This document shows positions 35,751 to 61,895 of a stretch of DNA of 64,000 nucleotides, piece by piece. The position numbers and the translations under genes were made by a program. The stretch is from Cerasicoccus sp. TK19100 (GTDB lineage: Bacteria; Verrucomicrobiota; Verrucomicrobiia; Opitutales; Cerasicoccaceae): positions 496,001 through 560,000 of the forward strand of contig NZ_JAPWDU010000004.1 of assembly GCF_027257155.1 (NCBI RefSeq), written 5' to 3'. The first letter of the stretch is position 1, and every line of letters starts with the position of its first letter. The notes beneath the pieces are model-generated. The model did no database searches. It had not been told where the DNA came from and saw nothing but the letters and a program-made list of their open reading frames with translations.

Positions 35751-36755
35751 ATGGCCTCCCTGAAAGAAATCGCAAAGGATGTTGGCGTCTCACATGCGCT
35801 GGTGTCACGAGTATTAAGCAACCGGATGGGGACGACCCGCGTCAGCGAGAAGACCCGCCAGAGAATTCTGGATCGCGCCAAAGAGCTTAACTATACCCCC
35901 AATCCCCTGGCAGTGGCGCTCAAGCGCGGTCGAAAAGGTGCCGTCGGCGTGTTCCTGCACGGAGTCGGCATCCCCGGCAGCGAGATGTCACTGAAATTCA
36001 TCCAGTCAGCCGGTCGCGCATTGTCCGCCAATGGCTACAATTTGTGGATGCAGTTTTTTGAGAAAAAAGAGGAGTTTCTCGCCGCGTGCAACGAAGAGCT
36101 CATGAGCAAGGTCGATGGGCTGATCCTCGCCGGTCTCGCCCACGAAGAGCTCGCCGAAAACGTCATTGAAATTGAAAAACGCGGCCTGCCCGTCGTCCTC
36201 TCATGCCACGGCAACATGGAGAAGTTCGGGCTGACGAATTTTCAGGTCGACGCCGAACAGCAGTCCTACCTAACAACCAAACATTTATTGGAATGCGGCT
36301 GCAAGGAAGTGGCGCATTTTTTCAGCATGCCGCTGCGCTATCGCGGCTATATCCGCGCCCACGAGGAGTTCGGCATCACGCCCAAGGACCATCTAACGGT
36401 GCCCGCCCGTGGCTATCAGACAAAAAGTGGCCACGACGCCATGGCGCACCTGTTCGACAACAACATCAAGTTCGACGGCATTTCCGCGCAGTCAGACGGC
36501 CAAGCTGCTGGCGTTTACCACTACCTGGCCGAGCGGGGAATCTCTCGCGAAAACTGGCCGCTGGTTACCGGCATTGACGACTCCCCAATTGCACACGACT
36601 TCAGCCTGATAAAGCTCACCAGTGCCACCGCCGAAATGGAGCGCTGCGCCGAGCTCGCAGTGAAGGCGGTGCATAACAAAATCGAAAGCGAACCCGTCGA
36701 AGAGCAGCACGTGGAGCCGCAGTTAATGATCCGCGAATCGACCAGCCGCAAATAG
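35751..36755 (+). CDS. LacI-family transcriptional regulator
   Basis: 334 residues. Residues 1-55 are the LacI helix-turn-helix and hinge (SLKEIAKDVGVSHALVSRVL, then LNYTPNPLAVALKRGRKGAV). Residues 60-330 are a periplasmic-binding-protein-like sensor for a sugar or related ligand. It lies upstream of the ABC importer operon in the same direction, so it likely controls uptake. Candidate operators are at 35683-35703, 36848-36859 and 36984-36993. The inducer is unknown. Confidence 0.92.
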   Translation: MASLKEIAKDVGVSHALVSRVLSNRMGTTRVSEKTRQRILDRAKELNYTPNPLAVALKRGRKGAVGVFLHGVGIPGSEMSLKFIQSAGRALSANGYNLWMQFFEKKEEFLAACNEELMSKVDGLILAGLAHEELAENVIEIEKRGLPVVLSCHGNMEKFGLTNFQVDAEQQSYLTTKHLLECGCKEVAHFFSMPLRYRGYIRAHEEFGITPKDHLTVPARGYQTKSGHDAMAHLFDNNIKFDGISAQSDGQAAGVYHYLAERGISRENWPLVTGIDDSPIAHDFSLIKLTSATAEMERCAELAVKAVHNKIESEPVEEQHVEPQLMIRESTSRK

Positions 36756-45165: not shown

Positions 45166-45768
45166 TTATTTTGCAGCGGCCATCAGTTCGCTAACCGTAA
45201 CCAGTTGTAAGCCCCTGGCTTTATAGCGGCGGATCATTTCCGGCATGGCCTCGAGCGTCTTCACCTGCCAAGTGTGCAGGATGTAGATATCACCCGCGAC
45301 GGTGTCCTTCGTGTAGTTTTCGGTAATAGCTTCCACAGTCGCGTCGGGTGCCCAATCGCTGTAGCTCTTTCCCATAATGGCGGGCAATCCCAGCTCGCCA
45401 AGCACGGTCCAAACGTGATCGCTGTGTTCACCAAACGGCGCACGAAATACCTTGGGCGCGATGCCAAAAGTATCCTCAAAAAGCTTCTGGCAATCTACGA
45501 GTTGCTCGCGCACTTCGCTCAAGCTCAGCTCCGGTAGATGCGGGTGCGTCATGGAGTGGTTGCCAATCTCATGCCCGGCCGCAAAAACGTCTTGGGCTAA
45601 GTTTGGTTCGGCGATCACCTTGTTACCAAGATCAAAGAACGTCGCCTTGCAATCGTGCTTCGCGAAGAGCTCGATCCACTGTGGGCTGGTTTCCGGGATT
45701 GGCCCGTCATCGAAGGTCAGCGCGATGTAAGGCTTGTCGGTTTTTACGTGATGAATGGGGGTGGGCAT
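45166..45768 (-). CDS. Polysaccharide deacetylase (NodB homology)
   Basis: 200 residues from the ATG at 45768, chosen because the NodB domain begins right after it (MPTPIHHVKTDKPYIALTFDDG). An upstream ATG at 45810 would start immediately before the sulfatase stop. Catalytic motifs are TFDDG (metal Asp pair), GNHSMTHPH (H-x4-H metal site) and the RAPFGEHS motif. The enzyme removes acetyl groups from a polysaccharide or peptidoglycan. No signal peptide is visible, so it may act on oligosaccharides inside the cell. It is 42 bases downstream of a sulfatase on the same strand; together they may strip sulfate and acetyl groups from imported glycans. Confidence 0.9.
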   Translation of the reverse strand: MPTPIHHVKTDKPYIALTFDDGPIPETSPQWIELFAKHDCKATFFDLGNKVIAEPNLAQDVFAAGHEIGNHSMTHPHLPELSLSEVREQLVDCQKLFEDTFGIAPKVFRAPFGEHSDHVWTVLGELGLPAIMGKSYSDWAPDATVEAITENYTKDTVAGDIYILHTWQVKTLEAMPEMIRRYKARGLQLVTVSELMAAAK

Positions 45769-45810
45769 AACTCGTATTGAGTGGCAGTTCATTAATGCGG
45801 GCAACGGCAT

Positions 45811-47747: not shown

Positions 47748-50700
47748 ATGAACTCCCCCAAGAAACTGTCTTCCCGCGTATCCGGGCACCAGAAAAGCAA
47801 CGGATTCGCACTGATCATCGCCTTGACGCTGATGTCCTTCATGGTCGTCCTGATCCTGAGCCTAGCGACATTTCTGAATGTGGAGATGCATACCTCTACC
47901 CACCAGAACCGCATGAACGAGGCGCGCTCCAATGCACTTTTCGGGGCACAGATTGCCTTGGGCCAGTTACAGATGCTCGCCGGCCCCGACCAGCGCGTTA
48001 CCGCTCCAGCCACTGTCGCTTACCCACAGAAGGAGAGCCCAGGTGAAGGTGAAATGTGGGATATATATCGGGAGAACGCATCAGGTATGCCTCCATCAGG
48101 CAGCGCTTCAGCTCCCGACACATGGAGCACGTATCTCATTGAAGATTACGATAACAGCAAAAGCGAAGATCGCGACTCTTGGAATAGCGCACTCGTTGAT
48201 TGGTGGGAGGGCAAGAATCCCCATTGGATTGGCGTTTATAAGTCCAATAAGCTGGACAAGGACGGCGAGTGGTTAAATGCAGCAGACTTCAATCGGGAAC
48301 AGACTCCACATTGGTTAATAAGCGGCAATGAGCGATACACCGAAGATAATATTGGAAGCCAAATTACGCCCGACACCGTATTGGACCCCGATGATTCAAG
48401 TGTGGCTATCCTTGTAGGATATGGAAGTGCAGCTCCCAACAAAAGCGCAGATGGCGATCAAGCACTTTCGAGCGACGGACTTGATGGCCGTGTTCTTGCA
48501 CCTAAAATAGACATAACCAATTCTGATTCTATTGTCACCGGGCAATATGCCTACTGGGTCGGAGACGAAAACACGAAGGCAAACTTTGCCATCATCGACC
48601 CATATTATGACGCTGCGTCTGGCTCTACCGAAGAACGCTACCGTCTACAGGTGCCACAGCGCTTGGGCTGGGAACAGATTACCGGTTATAAGGAAATTTT
48701 CGATGAATTCGACGGTGATGATAGCGCGCAGGAAGCAATGATTAACAATAAATACCTGCAGCTCATCGAAACTACTTCTCAGATCGTGCTAACCAACCCG
48801 GCTCCAGATGATGATTCGATCACCGAAAAATACCAGGACGCCGCAAAAATAAACTTTCACCACATTACCGGTTTCTCAAAAGGCCTTTTCACCGATACTG
48901 TTTTGGGTGGCTTGCAAAAAGACTTAACTCGCTACTTTGAGGATGGAGCAAGCGCAACCAATGGGGGCATTTCCGACGACAAACCAATTCCTGCCCCTAA
49001 TGATGACGACATTTTCAACTATGACAACGACCCGCGGTTTGGTTTATTCAACGAAGGCTTCCCCGTTTCAGATCTCAATGTCCCAACTTGGAGAAACATT
49101 CGAGAATGGTACACGAATGAGGTTCAGGATACAGGAGACGGAGAAGGTCAAATCCGAGCAACAGAAAGCACGGCACCCGTTATCACCCAAATTCGCCTAT
49201 TTGTTGGATTCTCGAAAACCGGCGACCAACTACGACTCAATGTGTTGCCTCAAGTCGTTCTATGGAATCCTTATGACACAGGGCTAGAACAAGCAGACTA
49301 CGACATCCGAATTAAGTTCTCGCCCAATTTAACTCGCTTCCGCGTTGCTTCTGCAACCACAGCGACCCAAAGCAAGTCCGAGTTAAATCCAGTGACAGTG
49401 CGAGAGTATTCAAGTGGTGACAACTATCACCATCACCGGATGAGCCGGTCGGATGCGGATTCGTGGCAGCACAACGATCGCGAAATAGTCAAAGATGAGG
49501 AAAGCATTGTAGTGACCTATCATGAAGATGCACTCCACATGCATCCCCAACATGCAAACTTAAGCGCCGTAACCCCTGACTCACAATATCCGGAAAATGA
49601 GGATATCTTTTTCGACAGCTACAACATTCGAATCTTCCCCGAAGACAATGAGCTATCACTTCGCATCCGTAATCAGGATTTCCAAGCAGGTGAGCATCTA
49701 ATGTTTTCGGTTGGTGAAGACCATAAGATAGATGAAAATAATGAGTCAGGAGTCCCCGTTGCTATCGTGGAACTCCAGAACGTATTTGATTTAGATGCAC
49801 CCGCTTCCGCGTATCATCATTTTGCGACATTGGATTATGCCCCTGGCGCGCTAACCAAGACCACATATTGGGCTGACAACGCAGTATTCCTTCCAGAGCC
49901 AGCAACAGAATTCCAAGTGAGGTTCTTTTTGAACGAGGTTGAAATCCGGGACTACGGAAGCTTCGGAAGCCTTGCCGGTGGCGGCGGCTTTATGTCAAAT
50001 TTCAATCGTTCCAGGAATGCCTCAGTACTAGTGGATCAGCCGATGATTTGGCCTAACGTCTATGATAGTGACTATTTTAGCGCCAATATAGTTGGGGACA
50101 GAGATCCCAATCTAAACTCAAGCGGCGCACGAAGTGGTTCGCCAGATATTCCGATCATGCTCGTAGGTGAAACCTATCTAGACCCTCTCTATTTCCGAGG
50201 CAGTGGCACAATTGACTCTGTGGAATCGGGTGCCACCAGCTTTCGTCCTTTTGCCAACTATAATATTATGGCAAAACAGTTCACTTCAAACAATCCAATG
50301 GTCGACGGTGTTCGCGGCGCGGAGGACTGGAGAAATGCCAACACTGGCGGTGAAAAGTTGGCTCGGTTCGAAGCCATCAACGGCATTCAAAGCCGGAATA
50401 ATAGTCAACCAAGTGTAAGTGACGCTTTTGGGAGCGGCAATATTGGGGAGGATAAGTGGAGTTCGTGGGCCCACACCCCCACAAATAACAAAGAAGCTGG
50501 TAAAGTAATTGTTGACAGAGGACAGCCATGGAATGCCTTCGATCAAAATCGTCGCGCTGAACTTCTAAATGGTCGAACCGTTGGCTTCAATTTTATTCAG
50601 CAGACCAAGCTTCCCGAAGGCCTTGCCAGAAACAATTGGGCGAATCCGAAAGTAGATGCACTCTCTAAAGTACCAGTGCGGCTAGCCTATCGCCCCGAAT

Positions 50701-52184
50701 TCGACATCGTTTCAATCGGCCAACTCCAACAGGTAAACCTTGGTGAGTTCATGTGGCAACCAGCCTACGTGATTGGCAATTCAGAAGCCAGCCCCTACAT
50801 TGACCGGGATCGGATCGCTGGCCTCACCTCACGCCCAGTGTTCCAATACTACAATGTCGATGATGACAACCTTCCTCTCCGAAATGCAGACGGCAGCTAC
50901 GCTGGCACTAAGACTTCTTGGGCATCAGAAGGCTTGGGAAATAACCGCTTTAACCACCTACTCGATATTTCCTACTTGCTCAACGAATCACTATGGGATC
51001 GCTACTTTTTCTCAACGATACCAGGAAATGGCTCCGTGCCATTGGATAATTCGGAGCCAATGGGCAACAGCCGCATAAAATTCAATGTTACAGATGACGT
51101 CACCGAATCCGACGTGCGCGACTTTGATAACGCCGCAGCTTATGTATACAACAATGGAGCATTCAACGTAAACTCGACTTCTGTCGAAGCTTGGAAAGCA
51201 CTGCTAACCGCTTTCCGTGATATTCAATTGCGTTCGCTTAGTAACTACAACGATACCAACCCGCGCGACACAGTGCCAATCTCACGCTCCCTTGAGCCGC
51301 TAAATGGAGACATCGCGTTCACCTCGGATAGTTCAACAAACTCGCCGATTGATTACGGCGCTGCACCCTCCCCCACCGGATACAATAACTACGATAAAGT
51401 GTTCGGAGGTTTCCGCTTCCTGACAGACGACATGATTGAAACCCTGGCTGAACGCATCGTTGATGAAGTACGCCTCCGCGGTCCATTTTATTCTCTGGCA
51501 GACTTTGTTAACCGACGCCTGGATGCACCACATGGACTTTCCCGAACTGAAGACGGCAGAATCAGCTATTCCAACTCACACTACACCGACGGGCGTAAAA
51601 ACAAAATGAGCCAAAGCTACGATGCTTTAGTTGGACTCCAAAGCATCAACGGGACAATCCAACGCGCCTTGAACGTCTCCGGCATTAACGGCGGTGTCAA
51701 CTATCCGGATACCGCTTCCCACAACTCATACAAACGCTATGACGCGATGTTTTTCCCACGGTCTTACAGCGAAACCGGCAGAGAAGGCTGGGGCAGTGAC
51801 TGGCGTTGGGTCGCGTATCCATCGATGGCATGGTACACAGACTCCGAAGCGCGCGCTGGTGCCCCCGTTGGAGAGCAGGGCCTACTCCTGTCACACAGCC
51901 CCGGCTTTGTTACACAGGCTGACATCCTCTCGATGATTGGGCCAGTGCTTCGCCCTAGAGGCGACACCTTCGTCATCAGGAGTTATGGCTCATCAATAAA
52001 CAAACTGACCGGAGAGGTCGAAGCAGAAGCTTGGTTAGAAATGACCGTTCAGCGGATAGTTGAGCCAGTGAAACCCGATAGCAACAATCCATTTGAACCC
52101 GACCTTGCCAACAAAGATGAAATAGATGTCGGACGAAAGTTTGAAATCGTTAACTTCCGCTGGCTATCACCTGAAGACGTGTAA
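47748..52184 (+). CDS. Giant exported protein, Verru_Chthon cassette A-like
   Basis: 1478 residues from the ATG at 47748. An in-frame ATG at 47694 would add 18 residues that do not fit. The N-terminus MNSPKKL...NGFALIIALTLM is a pseudopilin-like signal: basic head, G19|F20, then a long helix to about residue 42. It lacks the Glu at position +5. The remaining 1430 residues are acidic, Asn/Asp/Ser-rich and beta-like. Repeated segments such as SLADFVNRRLDAPHGLSRTE and VLRPRGDTFVIRSYGSSIN occur near the C-terminus and match what I remember of the Verru_Chthon cassette protein A family. Base composition is A+T-richer than the neighbours. A secreted protein follows 14 bases later. Confidence 0.75.
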   Translation: MNSPKKLSSRVSGHQKSNGFALIIALTLMSFMVVLILSLATFLNVEMHTSTHQNRMNEARSNALFGAQIALGQLQMLAGPDQRVTAPATVAYPQKESPGEGEMWDIYRENASGMPPSGSASAPDTWSTYLIEDYDNSKSEDRDSWNSALVDWWEGKNPHWIGVYKSNKLDKDGEWLNAADFNREQTPHWLISGNERYTEDNIGSQITPDTVLDPDDSSVAILVGYGSAAPNKSADGDQALSSDGLDGRVLAPKIDITNSDSIVTGQYAYWVGDENTKANFAIIDPYYDAASGSTEERYRLQVPQRLGWEQITGYKEIFDEFDGDDSAQEAMINNKYLQLIETTSQIVLTNPAPDDDSITEKYQDAAKINFHHITGFSKGLFTDTVLGGLQKDLTRYFEDGASATNGGISDDKPIPAPNDDDIFNYDNDPRFGLFNEGFPVSDLNVPTWRNIREWYTNEVQDTGDGEGQIRATESTAPVITQIRLFVGFSKTGDQLRLNVLPQVVLWNPYDTGLEQADYDIRIKFSPNLTRFRVASATTATQSKSELNPVTVREYSSGDNYHHHRMSRSDADSWQHNDREIVKDEESIVVTYHEDALHMHPQHANLSAVTPDSQYPENEDIFFDSYNIRIFPEDNELSLRIRNQDFQAGEHLMFSVGEDHKIDENNESGVPVAIVELQNVFDLDAPASAYHHFATLDYAPGALTKTTYWADNAVFLPEPATEFQVRFFLNEVEIRDYGSFGSLAGGGGFMSNFNRSRNASVLVDQPMIWPNVYDSDYFSANIVGDRDPNLNSSGARSGSPDIPIMLVGETYLDPLYFRGSGTIDSVESGATSFRPFANYNIMAKQFTSNNPMVDGVRGAEDWRNANTGGEKLARFEAINGIQSRNNSQPSVSDAFGSGNIGEDKWSSWAHTPTNNKEAGKVIVDRGQPWNAFDQNRRAELLNGRTVGFNFIQQTKLPEGLARNNWANPKVDALSKVPVRLAYRPEFDIVSIGQLQQVNLGEFMWQPAYVIGNSEASPYIDRDRIAGLTSRPVFQYYNVDDDNLPLRNADGSYAGTKTSWASEGLGNNRFNHLLDISYLLNESLWDRYFFSTIPGNGSVPLDNSEPMGNSRIKFNVTDDVTESDVRDFDNAAAYVYNNGAFNVNSTSVEAWKALLTAFRDIQLRSLSNYNDTNPRDTVPISRSLEPLNGDIAFTSDSSTNSPIDYGAAPSPTGYNNYDKVFGGFRFLTDDMIETLAERIVDEVRLRGPFYSLADFVNRRLDAPHGLSRTEDGRISYSNSHYTDGRKNKMSQSYDALVGLQSINGTIQRALNVSGINGGVNYPDTASHNSYKRYDAMFFPRSYSETGREGWGSDWRWVAYPSMAWYTDSEARAGAPVGEQGLLLSHSPGFVTQADILSMIGPVLRPRGDTFVIRSYGSSINKLTGEVEAEAWLEMTVQRIVEPVKPDSNNPFEPDLANKDEIDVGRKFEIVNFRWLSPEDV

Positions 52185-52198
52185 TATTATCACAAATT

Positions 52199-52963
52199 AT
52201 GATTAAGGCAATATTTACAATTCTCATCGCCAGTTTCACTCTAGCTTCAATCTCGACCACGAGTGCTCAAGTAAATCGGGATATTCCGACGCAAAAAGTG
52301 AGTGCGGTGCTTTTAGAAAACCGTAGTAAGAATCAGGAGCTATATTATTTGGACCTCTTGGACGAATACCGCCCTTTCCAAGTGGGTATGATGTCACGCG
52401 GAGGAGGAAATATTCAGGCCTTAAGCAATCAGCTAAATCTTTTTGCTAAATCTATCAATGAAGATGGTGACGAGGTCTATACACCTGCAATTGTCTTGGA
52501 TATCCCAAAAGTGAGTCAGGTCCTGATTCTCTTTTACTATGATAATAAACGCAACCTGAACTACCGCATCTACGACGACACTCTAGAAGCGCACCCCAGA
52601 GGCACAGGAAGGCTGATAAATCTAACTGATAGTGATATCATTGGAAAAGTAGCTGACGAGCAATTTCAAATTAAACCATGGGGTGCTCTGATTACAAATC
52701 CACTTATAAAGAACCAACGCACGCGTTTTCAATTCGGCTATGTAATCGAAACCAATGGAAAGTTTAATGCTGATCCTTCCATCGATACCTTTAGAATTCC
52801 GAACCAGAAAATGCGTTGGCTAGCGGTATTCACTTATTTCGATCATAAAGAATCTTCAGAAAACGGTAAAGAATTCATAATAACACGCCTGCCAAGCGTC
52901 ATCAGAATGCTGGATGCTCCACCACCCCAACCCGGCGAAGAAGGGTATGCAGCAACCAATTAA
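52199..52963 (+). CDS. Secreted protein after the giant exported protein
   Basis: 254 residues with a signal peptide (MIKAIFTILIASFTLASISTTSA). The mature part is beta-rich (VSAVLLENRSKNQELYYLDL, and PRGTGRLINLTDSDIIGKVA). The second stretch resembles a small domain found in verrucomicrobial exported proteins. It is the second gene of the cassette and ends at a strong terminator. It is probably a periplasmic or surface partner of the giant protein. I do not recognise a named family. Confidence 0.55.
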   Translation: MIKAIFTILIASFTLASISTTSAQVNRDIPTQKVSAVLLENRSKNQELYYLDLLDEYRPFQVGMMSRGGGNIQALSNQLNLFAKSINEDGDEVYTPAIVLDIPKVSQVLILFYYDNKRNLNYRIYDDTLEAHPRGTGRLINLTDSDIIGKVADEQFQIKPWGALITNPLIKNQRTRFQFGYVIETNGKFNADPSIDTFRIPNQKMRWLAVFTYFDHKESSENGKEFIITRLPSVIRMLDAPPPQPGEEGYAATN

Positions 52964-52966
52964 CTC

Positions 52967-53007
52967 AAAGAGAGGAGCAGCCACTGATGGTTGCTCCTCT
53001 CTTTTTT
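52967..53007 (+). terminator. Strong Rho-independent terminator after cassette 1
   Basis: A 13-base stem AAAGAGAGGAGCA/TGCTCCTCTCTTT with a T-run, starting three bases after the stop at 52963. It also lies near the end of the convergent GH2 gene and may serve both. Confidence 0.9.
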
Positions 53008-53022
53008 GAGAAAACTGATGCT

Positions 53023-55926
53023 TCAAAACACCTCTCCGGGCAGCGGGTCGATGCTGCGGGAAAGCAGACCCGTGATGCTCGGGTTGTCGATCTTAGCGTT
53101 CGCGTAGTTGAGCAGGTTGATCAACAGACGGCGGGCTACTGGGCAGTTGGGCGCAAGCTCCGGCAATGGAACGTGGCAGATGATTAACGTGCCGTCGCCG
53201 ATCGGCAGTTCGTAGATCGCAGCGCCATGGAAGAAGACCGCCGGTCGGGTCCACATGTGCGCGGAGAGGCAGCCCATGTGGATGCGACCACCCAGCGCAA
53301 GGATGTCATTGATGCGGTCAAACTTCGTCGGGGCCAGAGTCGACAACACAAAGTCATTCACCCCCGGTCCGCAGAGGCCGTCAAAAAGCTCGGGTGACAC
53401 CGAGTAGCAATTCGGCTGCATGACCGGCCGCTGGCGGATCAGCCCCGGGATCACATATTCATAGAGCGTCATCGGCTCAGGCTCAAAGGCGATCGCACAG
53501 CCGCCGCCTTTAATCGCTTTGCGCAGTTGGTGATAGTCCTCAAAAGTCGAGGCCGAGCGCTTGTCCGCCGAATGTTTAAAGTCATAAACGATAGGCGCAT
53601 TTGGTTCGCGGAAATTGTTGCTAAACGGCAGATTCACCCCGCCCTCGTCGATGACGATTCGCGAAACGGAACCACCACGGCTGCCGGTCACTGCCACTTC
53701 TTTGGCCTTCAGACCTGCTCTCCCGATAACGCGAAGTGGCACAGAATTTTCGACCACCTCGCCATTGGCCAAGGTTAGCTTGGCGCTTACCTGGTAGGCT
53801 CCAGCGCGGTCCAGAGTCAACGCCGGTTCGTCAAGCAAGACACTGCGATGCTCGGCATTGGCCGATAGTTCGCCGGACCAACCCTGGATTATTTTTCCCT
53901 GTTCACTCTGCAAAGCGATGGACCAGCTGTGCGGGCCGGCGGCAGACTCATGCATCAGCATGGCCTCGATCCGGAACTCCTGCCCCGGCTCAATAACACG
54001 CTGCGAGGGAAACAGCGCAATGGTGTCATCGGCGCAGCTTTCGGCCAAGGCTGTCAGCATCGGCTTCGGATTGCGCCAGGTATCCATCGCGCCGAAAAGC
54101 TCGCCGCTGGCATCAGCCAACTGCGTAAAAACCAGCCCGGATACCTTGGGGTTGGCGCGCATGGCAAAGGTTACCAGCTTCATATCCGCCGCGCGCAATT
54201 CGTTGGTGCGGCGGAGCCAGTCGTTCTTTTCGCCAACGGCCTCGCGGAGCCAGTCATTGGCAAAGGCTTCCTCCAACGACTCGTTGAAGTCGACGTTCAT
54301 GCGGTAGTCTTCGAGACCAATTTCGCGGTCGGCATCGCTGTAGGCAGCGAGCACATCGTCAAACATCGGTGGCACTTGCGCCGCGCCGTATTCGCTGACA
54401 AAGACGTTCTTGTCACCGCTGCCGAGGGCGCGGAAATCTTGCCAGGACTTATCCTGCGTCGGCACGCGGTGGTAGCTGTGCGTATCGGTGATCGGCGTGG
54501 GCTTGGGCTGGCTTGGGCTCAGCATGTAGGCCACGTTGCCGTCGTGCGCGGTGTCGGGCAGCATGTCGGACACGCCGCCATATTCGACGAGGCTATGCCC
54601 GCCGGACACATCGATCACCGGGCGCGTGGGGTCCATTTTATAGACATCCTGCAGCCACTGAACGACGAGCTTCATCATCTCCTGCGGCTTGAAGCCCTTC
54701 AGGTGGAAGACTTCGTTCATCAGGCCCCACATGACCACACAAGCGCGGTTGCGGTCGTTCTTAACGAGTCCGCTAATCTCGCGCCAACAACGGTTGGCCG
54801 TCTCGGGCGAATTCGCAATCCAGCCAATGGGCGGCTCAGACATAACCAACAGCCCCAGCTCATCCGCAACATCGAGCACCTCGTAATGCGGGCGCATGTG
54901 GCAGCGGATAAAATTAAAGCCCAGGTCCTTGATCTGCTGAAGCTCCTTGAGCACGATTTCATGGCTGTCCGGGTAAATCGCTGTGCGCGGGAAGTCTCCC
55001 TGGTGCAAGAAACCTTTCAGACAAACACGCTCACCGTTGAGCTGGAACTCGCCGTCCACGTAATCAAATTCGCGCATACCGAAGCGCACTTGTTCAGCAT
55101 CCAACGCATGCTCGCCGGTGCTCAGAGTGAGCGTAGCCTGGTAGAGATGCGGATCGGCCAAGGTCCATCGGCGCGCATTCTCAAACGGCGCAGTAAAGCT
55201 CACCTTCGTAATCCCCTGCTCCAGCGAGCAGCTCTCCACCGCTTGCAAAACAATGTTCTCCGCGCCCTGCCAGTCCGTAACGGTCAGACGCAGCTCAGCC
55301 CCATCAATTGCCACGCTGGAATCGATCTCACAGTGGACCTTTAACTCGTTGCGGCTCGGCCATGGTTCCAGAAACACGTCACCGATCGCCGCCGTTTGCG
55401 AAGTCTGCAGGCTAACGCCTTTCCACAAACCACCGACGTTGAAATACCACCCGAGTTTCGCAATCGGAATGGAGCCCTGATTGAGCGGGGCTCCGCAGCG
55501 GAAGCCGTCGATCTCGCGGTCCATCGGCGGTGCCACCACGCGCACAATCAGCTCATTGTCACCATCCGTTAGCTGGTCGGACACATCAAAGACAAACGGC
55601 AGGAGCCCGCCTTCGTGATCACCAATGCGCGCACCGTTGAGCCATGCCTCGGCAAAATACTGCGCCGCGCCAAAATGCAGGCGGTGCCGCTGCCCGGGTG
55701 ACGTTGTCGCATTTATCGTCCGGCGATACCAGACCACGCCATCGTAGAATGGACGGATCGTTTCAAAGGTGCTGGGCACGGTGATTTTTTCACCGCCGGG
55801 AAATGACTTTTCCCAGCCGTTTTGCTTGCCGCAATTATCGGGGTCGAAGGCGATATCCCATTCGCCATTTAAATCAAGATTGGTGCGCGGGGCAGCACAG
55901 GGTTCAATCGTGTAATCAAGGCTCAT
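53023..55926 (-). CDS. Glycoside hydrolase family 2
   Basis: 967 residues. An N-terminal sugar-binding jelly roll (NLDLNGEWDIAFDPDNCGKQ, YFAEAWLNGARIGDHEGG) leads to an Ig-like domain and a TIM barrel (about 290-600). The acid/base is E405 in MWGLMNE and the nucleophile is E512 in VFVSEYGAAQ. A C-terminal part of about 350 residues includes a further Ig-like domain and a glutamine-amidotransferase-like tail. No signal peptide is visible. Family members are beta-galactosidases, beta-glucuronidases and beta-mannosidases; the exact specificity cannot be read. It sits alone and in reverse orientation between the two pseudopilin-like cassettes. Confidence 0.9.
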   Translation of the reverse strand: MSLDYTIEPCAAPRTNLDLNGEWDIAFDPDNCGKQNGWEKSFPGGEKITVPSTFETIRPFYDGVVWYRRTINATTSPGQRHRLHFGAAQYFAEAWLNGARIGDHEGGLLPFVFDVSDQLTDGDNELIVRVVAPPMDREIDGFRCGAPLNQGSIPIAKLGWYFNVGGLWKGVSLQTSQTAAIGDVFLEPWPSRNELKVHCEIDSSVAIDGAELRLTVTDWQGAENIVLQAVESCSLEQGITKVSFTAPFENARRWTLADPHLYQATLTLSTGEHALDAEQVRFGMREFDYVDGEFQLNGERVCLKGFLHQGDFPRTAIYPDSHEIVLKELQQIKDLGFNFIRCHMRPHYEVLDVADELGLLVMSEPPIGWIANSPETANRCWREISGLVKNDRNRACVVMWGLMNEVFHLKGFKPQEMMKLVVQWLQDVYKMDPTRPVIDVSGGHSLVEYGGVSDMLPDTAHDGNVAYMLSPSQPKPTPITDTHSYHRVPTQDKSWQDFRALGSGDKNVFVSEYGAAQVPPMFDDVLAAYSDADREIGLEDYRMNVDFNESLEEAFANDWLREAVGEKNDWLRRTNELRAADMKLVTFAMRANPKVSGLVFTQLADASGELFGAMDTWRNPKPMLTALAESCADDTIALFPSQRVIEPGQEFRIEAMLMHESAAGPHSWSIALQSEQGKIIQGWSGELSANAEHRSVLLDEPALTLDRAGAYQVSAKLTLANGEVVENSVPLRVIGRAGLKAKEVAVTGSRGGSVSRIVIDEGGVNLPFSNNFREPNAPIVYDFKHSADKRSASTFEDYHQLRKAIKGGGCAIAFEPEPMTLYEYVIPGLIRQRPVMQPNCYSVSPELFDGLCGPGVNDFVLSTLAPTKFDRINDILALGGRIHMGCLSAHMWTRPAVFFHGAAIYELPIGDGTLIICHVPLPELAPNCPVARRLLINLLNYANAKIDNPSITGLLSRSIDPLPGEVF

Positions 55927-55992
55927 GCATGTTTCTGTTCCAAAAGCGTTATGAATCCAAGCTTAAAATTCACTTATCTCACGTTTGATAAA

Positions 55993-56022
55993 CTATTGCT
56001 GAAGGGCGTATTTTAGCAATAG
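55993..56022. promoter_or_regulatory. Inverted repeat in the GH2/pseudopilin divergent promoter region
   Basis: CTATTGCT (55993-56000) and AGCAATAG (56015-56022) are perfect eight-base arms 14 bases apart, in the 211-base gap between two divergent genes. It could be an operator for either side. Confidence 0.3.
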
Positions 56023-56137
56023 ATTTACATACATTCGGCCTCAATTCAATTGACCCAATTGGCCCTATGTCAGTATGCTATTCGTCTCGTTTTGATAATT
56101 TTGAATGGCTGATTCACGTCAAAATGAGCTGACTCCT

Positions 56138-56686
56138 ATGAACTGCAATACCAAGTCAAAAGGGTTTTCCCTGGTTGAACTACTGGTCGCGCTGACGCTA
56201 TTTGGGCTAATGGCAGCCGGGCTGGCGAGCCTCGCCATACAGAGCCGCCGCATGTCGGAAACGATCATCTTTGAAGATCAGGTCCACCGCTCGATTCAGA
56301 ACTTTCTGGAGGAAATTCGCGGTATCGGCTATGAACGCATTGAGAATGTGCTGGAGGAACCCAAAGACGGTTTCGACCTGACGCTGCCGGACATCGACGG
56401 AGCCGGTGCCATCGTATCGGTGAACATCCCCATTGCCGTTGTTAATGACACCGAACGGCTGCCCAATTGGACGACCATCAACGTGGAAACCACGACGAAA
56501 GATGGCGATTCCACCACGCTGCCCATTGATCTGCGCGTGGCGCTGAACAGCCATAAAGTTCTCGCTTCAGAAAACACCGAAGGCATCGAGGTCATCATCC
56601 AATTCCAGTGGCAACTCCCTTGGGAAAAGGATGGCCAGAAACAACTCGGGGAGGCAATTGCCTTCGTCGCTGACGAATCACCTTAA
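56138..56686 (+). CDS. Prepilin-like protein, first gene of cassette 2
   Basis: 182 residues from the ATG at 56138. An upstream in-frame ATG at 56105 would add 11 residues and lengthen the leader. A complete type IV prepilin signal is present: MNCNTKSKG|FSLVELLVAL with G9|F10 and Glu at +5. A helix follows to about residue 38. The remainder is a small globular domain. It resembles the Verru_Chthon cassette protein B/D pseudopilin families, but assignment to one letter is uncertain. It is followed 10 bases later by a second prepilin. A prepilin peptidase must process it, and none is in the window. Confidence 0.75.
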   Translation: MNCNTKSKGFSLVELLVALTLFGLMAAGLASLAIQSRRMSETIIFEDQVHRSIQNFLEEIRGIGYERIENVLEEPKDGFDLTLPDIDGAGAIVSVNIPIAVVNDTERLPNWTTINVETTTKDGDSTTLPIDLRVALNSHKVLASENTEGIEVIIQFQWQLPWEKDGQKQLGEAIAFVADESP

Positions 56687-56696
56687 TACTGCTAAC

Positions 56697-57335
56697 ATGA
56701 AATTACACTCCAAATCAAATGCTCAGCGAGGCTTCTCGCTGCCGGAAGTGTTGATCGCCGTTGGCGTTTTCTCGACCCTGATCGCGATTTCCAGCACCTT
56801 CTTCATCGACTCCTACCGAACTCTTTTCAAGAGCCAAACCGCACTGGAGGCCAACCGCTCTTCACGCTCTTTTCTGGACTTCCTTTCCCAAGACGGCATG
56901 GAGGCGGATTCCTTCGTGATCTATCCAGCCTATTCCAATAAAGTCTCCGAAGGTGACCGCGTCGTGAGCGGCAAGTCCGGCGATTTTCTGATACTGGCGG
57001 AAACCGATATCGGCGTGCTCGGCACCGAATACCACCGCCTCGTAGGCTACTATGTCTCCGAACGCGAGGAGGATGAATACGATGATATTCTGGTCTTCGA
57101 ATACGATGTAGCCGATGCAGACATCTCCAAACCGCTGGAGAGCCTCGTCGCCAAAGCGATCAACAATTCCAAAGACCGCCTGGTCTTCGCGCAAGTTAAG
57201 CGCATCGGCGGGGACGGCATGTTTATCAACGTCGACTCCGGCAATGTTTTTTCATTTCACGCAATCCGCGTCCGCTTTCCCGAGCAGGCGCAACCTTCAA
57301 AAATTCTTCACACGACCATTAACGTACGCTCCTGA
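56697..57335 (+). CDS. Prepilin-like protein, second gene of cassette 2
   Basis: 212 residues from the ATG at 56697. An upstream frame overlaps the first prepilin gene and is not used. The prepilin signal is complete: MKLHSKSNAQRG|FSLPEVLIAVG with G12|F13 and Glu at +5. A helix continues to about residue 40, followed by a globular domain (DFLSQDGMEADSFVIYPAYS). It resembles Verru_Chthon cassette protein C-type pseudopilins. Two bases separate its stop from the next gene, so translation is coupled. Confidence 0.75.
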   Translation: MKLHSKSNAQRGFSLPEVLIAVGVFSTLIAISSTFFIDSYRTLFKSQTALEANRSSRSFLDFLSQDGMEADSFVIYPAYSNKVSEGDRVVSGKSGDFLILAETDIGVLGTEYHRLVGYYVSEREEDEYDDILVFEYDVADADISKPLESLVAKAINNSKDRLVFAQVKRIGGDGMFINVDSGNVFSFHAIRVRFPEQAQPSKILHTTINVRS

Positions 57336-57337
57336 CC

Positions 57338-59821
57338 ATGAGACTATCGACACAGCCATCGCGTCGCGGATCCGCCATCCTCGTCGTGCTGATTTTATCC
57401 ACCGCCATCGCTGTCATTGCCGGCACGGTGTTAAATTCCACCCTCACGGAAAAACGCATGAACCTGCGTAATTCCCTGCGCACAGAAGCTTTGCGCGCAG
57501 CCGAAGTGGGCCTCGAACTCGCCTTCGCGGAATACGTCAACGACGTCGAGACTAACAGCGGCCTTTATGCGGCAGCCATCGCCAATCCCAAGCAGGAGAT
57601 CACCTTGTCCAGCCGCGGCAAAAACATGGTGGTGCGCAACAACATCAAGAGCATCGAAATCCGCTCCGAGTTCGTGCCGCTGCCAGTGCGCCGCTTCATC
57701 GACGGCAAAGATCCGGCCAATGACGACGACCCGCTCAAAAACAAATATGTCATTGAAACCAACATCAACCTTTACGCCAAAGTTGTCGCCGAGCGCAGCG
57801 GCCAGGATGTGGAGGTTTTCCTCGCCAAGACCATGGCCATCCGGGACGCCCCGCTGTTCTCGCACGCCATTTTCTTCAATGACGACCTGCTCTTTCACCG
57901 TAATTTCGACATCGTCGGTGACGTCCACACCAATGGCGACCTCGAGCTGGACACGCACAACGGCGACAACCCGCTCAAGCTCGGCAATATGACCACCGCC
58001 GTAGGCGACCTTTACCGCCTGACCACCGTCGACTCCTCCAACATGGGCAACCGCCTTTCCACGGGCGATAACCGCATCAACCTCAAAGGCAAGCTCGACC
58101 TGGACAACATGAATTATCACTCGGGCGGCACCGTTTACAGCAATGGCATCCTCGTGAACAAAGGTGTCGACTCCCGAATGAATAATTGGATGGAGGTCTC
58201 GCAATCCATGTTTAATGGCTCACTGATGGACGCATCCTACGGAGTCCCGGTCTTTAAGCCAGTCGGCGCTGAAGACGCCCAAAAGGATAATATCTACACA
58301 CCCGGCGTGAATGAGATGAACAACAGCGGCTATTCGCTGATCGAGCCACTACTCCCCACTGGCCACTCTGCGATTAAAAACGATGCCATCCGCGAAGGTA
58401 AAATGGCGGCCAAGGCCGGCCTGCTGCTGCGCCTCGAAGCCAACCAAACCTGGACTCCACGTGACCAATATGGCAACTACACCACCAATCCGAACAAGAT
58501 CGTAAATGACAACGAATACTTCGTGGTTAAGGGCTACAAATATAAAACCCGCGTTGGTTCCGGCACCCCGCAATTAGAAGCCGTCCCCCTGCCCGATCGT
58601 CTGATCGGCGTCGCCAACCCCAACATCACCTCGGTCAACTCCGGCCAGCCCTATGCAGAGAAGTTTAAAGAGGAGTCAGCCTCCGGCAAGCGCAACGGCC
58701 ACAGCTACAGCAGCAAAATCACCGGTGGTCTCGAAGACACCCGCACCGGCCGCAGCATGGACCTCGTCACCATGGATATTGCCCGCCTCAAGGAAGTGCT
58801 GGAGAAAGACGTTAGCTCACTCGACTCATCCGCTAAAGACTTTCGCAACAGCTTCAATACAAACAGCGATTGGAACGGCGTCGTTTATGTGGAGTTCCCG
58901 ACCTCGACCAAAGTCGACACGAGCGCTTCGGCTAACACCACCGACATCAGCAGCAAGCCTTTCCAATACGGATCGGCCGAGAAAGACATCCCCGAGCTGG
59001 CCAGCCAATACAGCACCGAAAGCTGGAAGCACACGCCCAAGCCGCGCACGGATAACATCGTGCCTATCGCCGAAGAATTCCGCACCCTCAACACGTCCGA
59101 CACCGGACTGGGCTTGCAGGTGATCAATGGCGGAAAGCTGCCCAGTGTCGGCGCGAACGAAGGCCTCACCATTGCCACCAATACCTCCATGTATGTGGTC
59201 GATCATTTTAATTCCGATGGCAACTTTAAGACCGGCACCGGCCTGAGTAAGAACGACGGCAGCAACGCCGATGCCGACTCCGGCCATGGCGAAGTGCCTG
59301 CCGCTCTGATGGCCGACTCCGTTACCTTGCTCAGTGGAGCCTGGGCCGACAACCGCCAATACAGCCACATGGGCTACGGCAGCCAGTCCAGCACCCGCAA
59401 GGCCAATGAGCCGCTGGAGGTTTCTGCCTGCATCGCCTCGGCCGACTACTCTGTCTATGAGTTTTTCGTCCGCTCATTGGAGAACTGGCAGCACCTGCTT
59501 AGCCATTCCGATGTGGGTGGCCTCGGCCACAAAAACCCCATTGTCGTCAAGGGTTCGCTAGTCTCATTTTGGGATTCGGAAATCCCGCTGATGAAGAATG
59601 TCTATGGCCGCGACAAGACAAAGCCCGTCGATAAATATTGGAACGAATTTGCCTCGCACGCCTTCACCACGCCGCGCTTCCACCAATTCCTAGCCGACGG
59701 CCGCTTCCCTCCCGGCACCCCGACTGCGCGCTTCTATGACTTGCGCGAATACGATGTCATGCACCCCGCTGACAAGACAGATGTCACGCTGCTCTCCGGC
59801 GTCGGCTTCAAAATGAATTAA
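57338..59821 (+). CDS. Large pseudopilin-like exported protein, third gene of cassette 2
   Basis: 827 residues. The N-terminus MRLSTQPSRRG|SAILVVLILS is a pseudopilin-like leader with a short basic head and a long hydrophobic helix, but no Glu at +5. It resembles PilX/GspK-type minor pilins. TLTEKRMNLRNSLRTEALRA directly after the helix matches the conserved region seen in PilX-N proteins. The large domain is Asn/Ser/Gly-rich (SGHGEVPAALMADSVTLLSG). It occupies the place held by the giant A-like protein in cassette 1, but is about half its length. It may cap a pseudopilus, as GspK does in type II secretion, which is inference. Confidence 0.7.
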   Translation: MRLSTQPSRRGSAILVVLILSTAIAVIAGTVLNSTLTEKRMNLRNSLRTEALRAAEVGLELAFAEYVNDVETNSGLYAAAIANPKQEITLSSRGKNMVVRNNIKSIEIRSEFVPLPVRRFIDGKDPANDDDPLKNKYVIETNINLYAKVVAERSGQDVEVFLAKTMAIRDAPLFSHAIFFNDDLLFHRNFDIVGDVHTNGDLELDTHNGDNPLKLGNMTTAVGDLYRLTTVDSSNMGNRLSTGDNRINLKGKLDLDNMNYHSGGTVYSNGILVNKGVDSRMNNWMEVSQSMFNGSLMDASYGVPVFKPVGAEDAQKDNIYTPGVNEMNNSGYSLIEPLLPTGHSAIKNDAIREGKMAAKAGLLLRLEANQTWTPRDQYGNYTTNPNKIVNDNEYFVVKGYKYKTRVGSGTPQLEAVPLPDRLIGVANPNITSVNSGQPYAEKFKEESASGKRNGHSYSSKITGGLEDTRTGRSMDLVTMDIARLKEVLEKDVSSLDSSAKDFRNSFNTNSDWNGVVYVEFPTSTKVDTSASANTTDISSKPFQYGSAEKDIPELASQYSTESWKHTPKPRTDNIVPIAEEFRTLNTSDTGLGLQVINGGKLPSVGANEGLTIATNTSMYVVDHFNSDGNFKTGTGLSKNDGSNADADSGHGEVPAALMADSVTLLSGAWADNRQYSHMGYGSQSSTRKANEPLEVSACIASADYSVYEFFVRSLENWQHLLSHSDVGGLGHKNPIVVKGSLVSFWDSEIPLMKNVYGRDKTKPVDKYWNEFASHAFTTPRFHQFLADGRFPPGTPTARFYDLREYDVMHPADKTDVTLLSGVGFKMN

Positions 59822-59828
59822 TCCGGAA

Positions 59829-60590
59829 ATGCTGCGAAAAACGCTTCTCCTACTCTCGGCGTGTCTGCTCGCGCCTGGCTTGCAGGCACAGGACCAGATA
59901 GAGCTTCCTTTTCCGGAAGCCTCGACCTTCGTCTTGCCGAAAAACCCGGACCTGTATTTCACCCAAAAAGTCATTACCGTGGAGGATGAGTTTGGCGCGC
60001 CGCTGAACTTTTTCCTGCTCAGCTCGGCCGACTTCACCATTGAAACGCCGCCGACCGAAGACTGGTCCGTTCGCTCAGAGGACAAAGATCACTCCGCCGT
60101 GTTCAGCCACCGTTTGGTCGATACGGTGAAGATGACCTTCGATTGCTATCGCACCGAGACCCTGCCCGAGCTAACCCCGGACTTGCTTCAAAGTAAGATC
60201 AATCAGGAGGCCTTTCTCCTGGTCAAGCAGGGGTTCAACCGCTTTCAGGTTGAAGCCGAGGAAGAGGATTTCACCGCCACAGTGCCCACTCGCAAACTAC
60301 AGATGGCCGACGGCACCATCGTCGAGGTGGCCAAGCGCGGGCGCGTCAAACCGCTCCGCGTCGCAGACCAGTATCTCTACGATCTCATCGCGCAAAAAGT
60401 CGACTCGCAGGGCAACATTACCGAGCAACACATGATCCACGAAACCTTCTGCGTGCACCCGATGGGCTACACGCTGGTTTGCCGTGTCGAGGGCGACGTC
60501 CGCGCGACTGCCCTGACCAAGGGCTGGCTGCGGGATTTCCTGCGAAGCTCTCAGGAGAACGCCGCGCTTCTCCAAGCCTCAAGGAATTAA
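59829..60590 (+). CDS. Secreted protein, last gene of cassette 2
   Basis: 253 residues with a signal peptide (MLRKTLLLLSACLLAPGLQA). The mature part has no motif I recognise (ASTFVLPKNPDLYFTQKVIT, then FCVHPMGYTLVCRVEGDVRA). It starts seven bases after the large pseudopilin-like gene and so is probably co-transcribed. Cassette 1 also ends with a signal-peptide-bearing protein of almost the same length (254 residues), but I see no clear sequence similarity between the two. Confidence 0.55.
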   Translation: MLRKTLLLLSACLLAPGLQAQDQIELPFPEASTFVLPKNPDLYFTQKVITVEDEFGAPLNFFLLSSADFTIETPPTEDWSVRSEDKDHSAVFSHRLVDTVKMTFDCYRTETLPELTPDLLQSKINQEAFLLVKQGFNRFQVEAEEEDFTATVPTRKLQMADGTIVEVAKRGRVKPLRVADQYLYDLIAQKVDSQGNITEQHMIHETFCVHPMGYTLVCRVEGDVRATALTKGWLRDFLRSSQENAALLQASRN

Positions 60591-60668
60591 GCGAATCGGA
60601 ACGCATTCTGCTCGTAGCTTTGGTGTTTGCCATCGGCGCGTCAGCCGGTAGTGTCAGCCCCCGCGCTT

Positions 60669-61895
60669 ATGAGCCACAAAATTCTCCACATCAACGAGCC
60701 CACACCCGTTCCTCCCTACGAAGAACGCGGAAACATTCCAGACATCCGCAAGGCAGGCCTTGATCCCGACTTCTGGTATCCGCTCGCCCGCAGCCAGGAT
60801 GTCAAACCCGGCAAAGCGCACGCCGTAACCTTTGCCGGCGAGCCCATTGCGCTCGTCCGCAGTAAGGAGGCTGGGCTGTTCGCCGTGGAGGACCGCTGCG
60901 CCCACCGCCAAGTGCCGCTCAGTGTCGGTGTGGTGGAAGATGGTGGCATCAAATGTGGCTACCACGGTTGGAAGTTTGACTGCACTGGCAGCTGCACCAG
61001 CGTCCCCTATCTGGACAAGTGCACGCTCCATCCCAACAGCATCAAGGCCTACCCGTGCAAGGAGCGCTACGGCCTCATTTTTGTGTTCCCGGGTGACCCG
61101 GCCAAGGCCGACTCCGTCCCCTTCCCCGAGACGCCGGCCGCCGAAGACCCGCGCTACAAAGTGCGCACGCTCGACCGGCGCATCGAGTGCCATTGGTCAT
61201 TCATGCACGAGAACCTGATGGACATGAACCACCAGTTCCTGCACCGCAAGCTGATGGGCCAGATCAAGACCCTTTTCCTCGGCAAGCGCGAGGGCGACAA
61301 CTGGGTCGAAGTCGACTATTCCTTTTACCGCAAGGGCGGCAAGCAGTCGCTCGGCGAAAAAGTCATGATTCAGCGCAGTGGCAAGGCCAAGGAAATCAAG
61401 GAAGCCGATGAGAAAGCCAAAGCTGAGGCTGAAGGCCTCAAGACCCGCGACATCATGACGATTCGCACCGAGTATCCCTACCAGCGCCTCAAGTTCTGGA
61501 CCGCCGGCAGCAAGGAGCCCGCACTCGATTTGTGGAACCTGTATTACCCGGTCGACCGTGAGCAGCGCATCAACCAGACCTACGGCCTCATGTGCATCCA
61601 GCGCCCGGCCAAAGTCGGCTTCCTGCTGGATGTTTTCTGGCCGGCAATAATCTGGTTTACCAACGGCATCTTCAGCGAAGACAAGTGGATCTGTGAACTC
61701 GAGCAAGCCGCCTTCGACGCCCAAGGCGAAGACTGGAACCACGAAATTTTCCCCGCAATCCAAAGCGTGCGCCGCGTCATCACGAGCAACAGCGTGCCCA
61801 TCCGCACCAGTTGGAAGGGCAGCAAATCCTCCCCCGAGCACGTCCGCGCCCGCCACGAAGCCACCGAGCAAAAGGCCGCCGGCGGCGAAGGGTAA
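60669..61895 (+). CDS. Rieske non-haem iron oxygenase
   Basis: 408 residues from the ATG at 60669. An in-frame ATG at 60627 adds 14 residues without Rieske similarity. The Rieske [2Fe-2S] site is C77-A-H79 and C96-G-Y-H99 (CAHRQVPLSVG, CGYHGWKFDC). The catalytic domain has the mononuclear iron motif ENLMDMNHQFLHRKLMG with the two histidines. It resembles ring-hydroxylating and O-demethylating oxygenases of the vanillate demethylase/pheophorbide oxygenase type; the substrate cannot be read. No reductase gene is nearby. Confidence 0.9.
   Translation: MSHKILHINEPTPVPPYEERGNIPDIRKAGLDPDFWYPLARSQDVKPGKAHAVTFAGEPIALVRSKEAGLFAVEDRCAHRQVPLSVGVVEDGGIKCGYHGWKFDCTGSCTSVPYLDKCTLHPNSIKAYPCKERYGLIFVFPGDPAKADSVPFPETPAAEDPRYKVRTLDRRIECHWSFMHENLMDMNHQFLHRKLMGQIKTLFLGKREGDNWVEVDYSFYRKGGKQSLGEKVMIQRSGKAKEIKEADEKAKAEAEGLKTRDIMTIRTEYPYQRLKFWTAGSKEPALDLWNLYYPVDREQRINQTYGLMCIQRPAKVGFLLDVFWPAIIWFTNGIFSEDKWICELEQAAFDAQGEDWNHEIFPAIQSVRRVITSNSVPIRTSWKGSKSSPEHVRARHEATEQKAAGGEG

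Follow-up and report, generated by a model that had tools for sequence, protein, structure and literature searches.

The giant gene of this region belongs to a family that Cerasicoccus sp. TK19100 carries in many copies. Its product, A, has a predicted GspK-type core, and the gene is paired with one for a small secreted-looking partner, S. Because the A-S module has multiplied while the machines that could assemble filaments stay few, interchangeable tips on one machine are suggested. The explanation that we favor, at a little better than an even chance, is that the A-S pairs are giant, swappable tips that serve a shared filament machine. It is grounded in the paralogy of A, the A-S pairing, the predicted GspK fold, the decoupling of A copies from platform genes in the bacterium's own order, a bias toward LacI genes around A, and a head of A that is invertible in one genus.

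The window is the whole stretch of DNA that was analyzed, 64,000 nucleotides (G000:C4:496001-560000) from a source genome of 5.07 Mb in 13 contigs. Open reading frames and leaders confirm the genes that the original prediction placed there (Table 1), with two small prepilins that have Glu+5 and two large proteins, A and K, that do not. The leaders of the prepilins, G/FSLVE and G/FSLPE, both exceed the cut-off of the N_methyl model, and this model matches neither A (G/FALII) nor K (G/SAILV). An internal ATG at 56697 is the likely start of the second prepilin. No platform gene is present near the cassettes in the window, as predicted; all four genes of the genome with a PF00482 domain map elsewhere.

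Table 1. Genes of the two cassettes and their neighbors, in window positions
Feature	Position	Strand	Remarks
Polysaccharide deacetylase	45166..45810	-	Upstream of A; 70% identity to C. maritimus counterpart
A, giant protein with predicted GspK-type core, 1478 aa	47748..52184	+	Pilin-type leader without Glu+5; fold via homologue L144
S1, secreted-looking partner of A, 254 aa	52199..52963	+	Two predicted Ig-like beta-sandwich domains; 14 nt past A
GH2-family glycosidase	53023..55926	-	Between cassettes 1 and 2; incidental neighbor
Prepilin 1 of cassette 2	56105..56686	+	Glu+5 present
Prepilin 2 of cassette 2	56631..57335	+	Glu+5 present
K, 827 aa	57338..59821	+	Cassette 2; pilin-type leader without Glu+5
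S2, secreted-looking cassette 2 partner, 253 aa	59829..60590	+	

For window A, neither Pfam nor NCBIfam gave a match over cut-off. The weak matches among the 22 intact A proteins of the source genome were most often to GspK (NF037980; 20 of 22), followed by Verru_Chthon_A (TIGR02600; 18 of 22). Window A scores 18.4 bits with NF037980, under the curated cut-off of 130, which taken alone is a weak test because the GspK of the genome's own gsp operon also fails it (107.9 bits). With TIGR02600 the score is 14.9 bits against a cut-off of 332.3 and covers model positions 1 to 59 of 1296; the top match among the 22 proteins has an E value of 5.4e-7. Membership of A in the Verru_Chthon family, which had been proposed for cassettes of this type, is so far below the cut-off that we rejected it. 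PilX_N matched 4 of the 22 proteins at an E value of 1 or lower (best, 0.0037) and did not match window A; K reached 11 bits with this model (cut-off, 25.5). Searching by sequence, we found no solved chain for A.

A structural model was obtained with AlphaFold2 for an A homologue of Cerasicoccus maritimus (L144; 1,102 aa; 53 rows). It has a pTM of 0.79 and a mean pLDDT of 70, with one helix at residues 18 to 76 and a large low-confidence middle. In a second structure aligner the model matched 204 to 257 residues of the GspK/XcpX chains 3ci0_K, 5vtm_X, 6utu_F, and 9a1f_T at Z scores of 9.6 to 10.5 and an rmsd of 3.1 to 3.5, the next best Z score being 3.4. The alignment with 9a1f_T, itself an integrative model, spans residues 18 to 1102 of the L144 model. 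In Foldseek the first row was also 3ci0_K (GspK), but at an E value of 0.04. Comparison by hhalign of the A N-terminus with a seven-row GspK profile (from the gsp operon of the source genome and 6 of 11 other gsp loci) gave E values of 5e-7 (profile A8) and 6e-5 (profile A1), and nothing was significant in A beyond the N-terminus. The predicted GspK core of A is thus well supported by the fold, and by sequence at the N-terminus only, which bears out the GspK-like nature originally predicted for the large protein. Judged from the L144 model, A would carry hundreds of residues beyond this core.

S1 of the window was predicted with a pLDDT of 90.6 and is all beta following the signal helix. The model contains two Ig-like sandwiches arranged as in the extracellular domain of PepT1/PepT2 (Z score, 11.4; 177 residues; rmsd, 3.9). 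We dropped this domain as a hint to function, as only the Ig-like arrangement is in common. The second S domain weakly resembled fimbrial and adhesion proteins of Bacteroides (Z scores of about 4 to 5.5). By sequence, nine solved chains matched S at E values of 0.15 to 0.97, which we take as noise. In its predicted structure, S looks like a binding module and points to no enzyme.

A search with A recovered 23 A-S loci in the source genome including the window, 22 of them with an intact A, and one further A fragment. In the locus that completes the 23 (L059; C2:350429-353991), A is frameshifted and S is still present; the fragment (L072; C1:216378) consists of 523 N-terminal residues and has no S. 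When the open reading frames were read, S was found directly after A and on the same strand at all 23 source-genome loci that reach the A C-terminus. The S proteins have 219 to 293 residues, counted from the first start codon, and mostly begin with what looks by eye like a signal peptide. The 22 intact A proteins, of 967 to 1515 residues, share 40 invariant columns when aligned. These lie mostly in the N-terminus and the last 500 residues, and between residues 510 and 988 of window A there is G648 alone. The leader residues Gly-Phe-Ala are invariant in all 22, and position 5 is I, V, or L. The median pairwise identity is 17% for S versus 27% for A, and the distances of A and S are correlated (Mantel rho, 0.26; P = 0.0045; n = 22), as would follow from joint duplication of the two genes. 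Of the 23 A genes, 22 have no N_methyl prepilin at a distance of 5.5 kb or less; the exception is window A, with cassette 2 at 4 kb. Contigs C6, C7, and C9 (about 0.99 Mb) hold none of the 23 A genes, and C1 holds eight.

The neighborhood of the A genes is biased. Within 6 kb of the A midpoint a LacI gene is found for 9 of 23 A genes, compared to 2.7 expected within contigs (P = 0.001; 42 LacI genes in the genome), and this excess persists at 8, 10, and 15 kb (P of about 0.003 or less). Among the matches listed, LacI accounts for 9 of 116 neighboring reading frames at 22 loci and for 1 of the 142 frames that 20 random stretches contain (P = 0.006); the single control is the window's own LacI gene at 35751, which falls within the random stretch L185. 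Glycoside hydrolases at an E value of 1e-47 or lower account, among the matches listed, for about 7 of 116 versus 1 of 142 (P = 0.024), with a limit that was set after the lists were seen and with both GH1 members assumed to pass. These Pfam counts draw on the 25 commonest of 68, 53, 87, and 79 families. Sulfatases are not enriched near A (3 of 23, P = 0.15; 34 in the genome), and a sulfatase linkage was rejected.

The source genome has 49 N_methyl matches, one Peptidase_A24 gene (prepilin peptidase), and four T2SSF genes (PF00482; GspF/PilC type). All 23 A loci are away from its gsp operon (L078), in which GspG is over the cut-off, GspK and GspD (302.8 bits) are under theirs, and GspE and GspF are best matches. 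Another locus (L079) has a clear PilT, and two lone T2SSF-domain genes (L080, C7:203149; L081, C2:332056) are found apart from both loci. The original prediction had proposed a count of cassettes against platforms, and this count gave 23 A-S loci and eight prepilin-prepilin-K sets to four platform genes and one peptidase; many cassettes with a single platform were what it regarded as a sign of a shared machine. Neither of the findings that would have refuted it was made: a full set of secretion genes does not stand beside each cassette, and both a peptidase and platform genes are present in the genome.

Relatives of A occur well beyond the source genome. A contig scan confirmed 470 of them, and the best 80 of the 470 loci, which we examined, include Cerasicoccus, Coraliomargarita, Rariglobus, Luteolibacter, Akkermansiaceae, and Kiritimatiellae. 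With an S profile made from the source genome only, 64 of the 80 external A genes with room in this best 80 of 470 have an S that ends no more than 1.5 kb downstream, and the other 16 have no recognised S. The count for these best 80 of 470 was first 60 and became 64 after an altered distance rule and a tighter E limit; a count of 65, from a profile that includes external S, is circular and was set aside. Together with the 40 invariant columns of the 22 A proteins, this pairing places the genes beyond chance. Profile A8 holds 52 of 61 intact external A proteins, and profile A9 holds 44 of 63 S proteins. Two loci have tandem giant A genes, with a recognised S only after the second (L133) or after neither (L089). 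The closest orthologue of the window pair is in C. maritimus (L085; A, 74%; S, 59%), where the polysaccharide deacetylase is the sole window neighbor kept, and both the sulfatase and the GH2 gene of the window are absent within about 8 kb. For the window itself, the case for a biased neighborhood is weaker on this account. The GH2 enzyme, which the original prediction described as flanked by the two cassettes, was rejected as a component of the system on account of its absence there.

Among the Verrucomicrobiota genomes that are at least 90% complete, 51 of 193 have the A C-terminus, with 1 to at least 23 copies each; up to 25 candidates were scored per genome, so high counts may be low. A T2SSF-domain gene is present in all 51 and PilT (E value of 1e-60 or lower) in 50, G116 being the genome without it, which carries little weight because each is found in nearly all genomes anyway (186 and 185 of 193). 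Only two T2SSF domains, one gene's worth, are found in 20 of the 51. The A-bearing genomes of the bacterium's own order have 1 to at least 23 copies of A, a number uncorrelated with that of platform genes (rho = 0.09; P = 0.64; n = 28). When all 51 genomes with A are taken together, the two numbers are weakly correlated (rho = 0.37; P = 0.007), with a rho of 0.26 after genome size.

With the GspD model, 22 of the 51 A-bearing genomes (G108, G116, G145, G148, G154, G175, and 16 genomes of genus g26) match only at E values weaker than 1e-60, a line chosen after the gap between 1e-51 and 1e-82 became visible, and the other 29 match better than 1e-80. We used this gap because the curated cut-off is passed by just 51 of the 193 genomes and the GspD of the source genome fails it. 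Five platform loci were read, in G148, G145, G116, G027 (one ATPase scanned), and G102 (list of reading frames only). G148 and G145 each have a single platform gene, and there the ATPase and platform genes adjoin a PilT over its cut-off; G116 has the ATPase and platform gene and no PilT. The ATPases of G145, G148, and G116 score slightly higher with GspE than with PilB models and the platform proteins of G145 and G116 slightly higher with GspF than with PilC models, all under cut-off; for the G027 ATPase the PilB model scores higher, still under cut-off. As these proteins are not separable as GspE or PilB and GspF or PilC, the type of machine rests on PilT and the secretin. A thus persists without a close GspD-type secretin, and there is a PilT-associated machine at least in G145 and G148, so the shared machine need not be a type II secretion system (T2SS). 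For A. muciniphila, the excerpted text of one study describes outer-membrane PilQ as abundant (PMC4960237).

In genus g26, which its motif, kinship, and genome size lead us to regard as Akkermansia, the N-terminal 315 to 322 codons of A and the DNA upstream make up about 1.2 kb that is bounded at either end by inverted copies of a motif. The exact motif ATTTAGAATCCG is present in five of the seven loci read (L194, L195, L197, L198, and L199), and close variants flank the head in L171 and L196. At L197 the head is in frame with the body. At L198 and L199, in other genomes, it faces away and the junctions are swapped reciprocally. Two bodies in inverted orientation flank the head at L171, L194, L195, and L196; in L171 (7587-14731) they are 100% identical over 2965 nt. 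Measured from a transporter gene at the flank, the body joined to the head is the distal one in L171 and L194 and the proximal one in L195 and L196. The motif is closely similar to the CGGATT..AATCCG of Akkermansia invertons, as given in the excerpted text of PMC13343947; compared with the invertons described in that excerpt, the invertible piece here is the coding A N-terminus with upstream DNA, beside one body or between two. We found no paper that joins Akkermansia invertons and a pilus. The arrangement of these sequences suggests that the A head in g26 is invertible and that the product may be exposed and vary at the surface.

If the A-S pairs are swappable tips, the single prepilin peptidase would cleave the A leader and the one long N-terminal helix of A would dock in a type IV filament or pseudopilus. 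Lacking Glu+5, A would cap the tip as GspK does, and its extra domains and the two-Ig-domain S, probably in contact with each other, would project from the tip, where they may be displayed at the surface and bind a ligand. With few assembly machines and up to 23 A-S tips, the cell could fit its tip to the polysaccharide or surface that it meets. The machine would be the PilT-associated one, the only one seen in some genomes, or possibly a T2SS where one is present. A different and rather unlikely possibility is that A caps the T2SS pseudopilus as a cargo selector and recruits enzymes, for example the neighboring hydrolases, through one T2SS secretin. The GspK fold, the single gsp operon of the source genome, and the glycan-enzyme bias of the neighbors all fit such a role. 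It sits poorly with the 22 A-bearing genomes that have distant GspD matches only, an argument that is weakened by the post hoc line and by the ambiguous ATPases and platform proteins of the single-platform genomes; an invertible head, moreover, is more in keeping with an exposed product than with a selector in the periplasm. What had been proposed originally, one shared machine with customized tips for different cargoes, stands as to the many cassettes and few machines, but a T2SS is not required and no A is tied to a cargo.

The invertible head of the Akkermansia-like genomes, the variable middle of the A paralogues, and the fimbrial and adhesion matches of the second S domain might also point to a surface adhesin or antigen that varies against phage, predators, or immunity and has no specific role with polysaccharides, the LacI link then reflecting accessory islands. 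We regard this as improbable, given the LacI and glycoside hydrolase bias around A and given that both the search for inverted sites and their detection are confined to genus g26. Very little likelihood attaches to the idea that A is no filament part and is instead a periplasmic scaffold, anchored in the inner membrane, that kept the GspK core and lost assembly. The very large size of A and the 22 of 23 A genes that stand apart from N_methyl prepilins would agree with a scaffold; the invariant leader argues against it, as does the platform gene in every A-bearing genome, near universal as this gene is.

The A-S pairs can be set beside several known systems. With GspK/XcpX, A has in common the predicted core fold, the long N-terminal helix, and a leader without Glu+5, but it is three to five times larger, occurs in up to 23 copies and with S rather than gspG-J, is far under the NF037980 cut-off, and is found also in genomes without a close GspD. 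In Verru_Chthon cassettes, protein A is accompanied by B, C, and D. TIGR02600 resembles our family in the phylum of its name, its giant size (a 1296-position model), and its GspK-like N-terminus, but window A is under the cut-off and no prepilin genes directly adjoin A; our literature search found no paper on Verru_Chthon cassettes or TIGR02600, and the papers that it listed for GspK in this phylum were unrelated by title. The minor pilins of type IVa pili carry the large tip protein PilY1. A resembles them in the idea of a type IV pilus whose minor subunits bear a large protein at the tip, but in A the GspK-type subunit contains the large part as an insertion of its own, and the partner S is small. 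SusCD, the marker of polysaccharide utilization loci, is a multicopy pair in glycan-utilization neighborhoods, to which A-S is also biased; the A-S proteins are unrelated to it, and only 9 of 23 loci have a LacI gene within 6 kb. It is a doubtful extension that the whole phylum keeps a library of giant GspK-fold tips with Ig-like partners on one type IV machine, chosen by LacI in free-living members and by inversion in gut Akkermansia, with a diversity like that of SusCD.

The source genome has eight prepilin-prepilin-K sets, cassette 2 among them, and these sets have a likeness to minor pilin operons. The original prediction described two cassettes of one kind. Both exist, but A and K fail to find each other genome-wide (no A among 11 K-search matches and no K among the A-search matches), so we rejected a single family of A and K and regard the cassettes as two families. 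A common S family was also rejected, as the S profile (four-sequence set) gave an E value of 0.024 or worse on S2. There are three full-length K copies; the paralogues L073 and L074 share 35 and 33% identity with window K, and in both loci K is preceded by two prepilins and followed by a secreted-looking gene. The S2-type partners of the three match one another only at E values of 0.3 or worse. The other five sets, in L075 (three), L076, and L083, are smaller, and two of their K genes were called by the leader alone. No T2SSF gene lies in the stretches of the eight sets. One further stretch without a T2SSF gene (L077; C6:348674-351381) has five N_methyl matches among other genes. K-type proteins are found in 31 of 113 genomes of the class (E value of 1e-10 or lower). 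In the window, cassette 2 is adjoined by a Rieske oxygenase gene (60627-61895), for which the top NCBIfam match, under cut-off, is 4beta-methylsterol monooxygenase.
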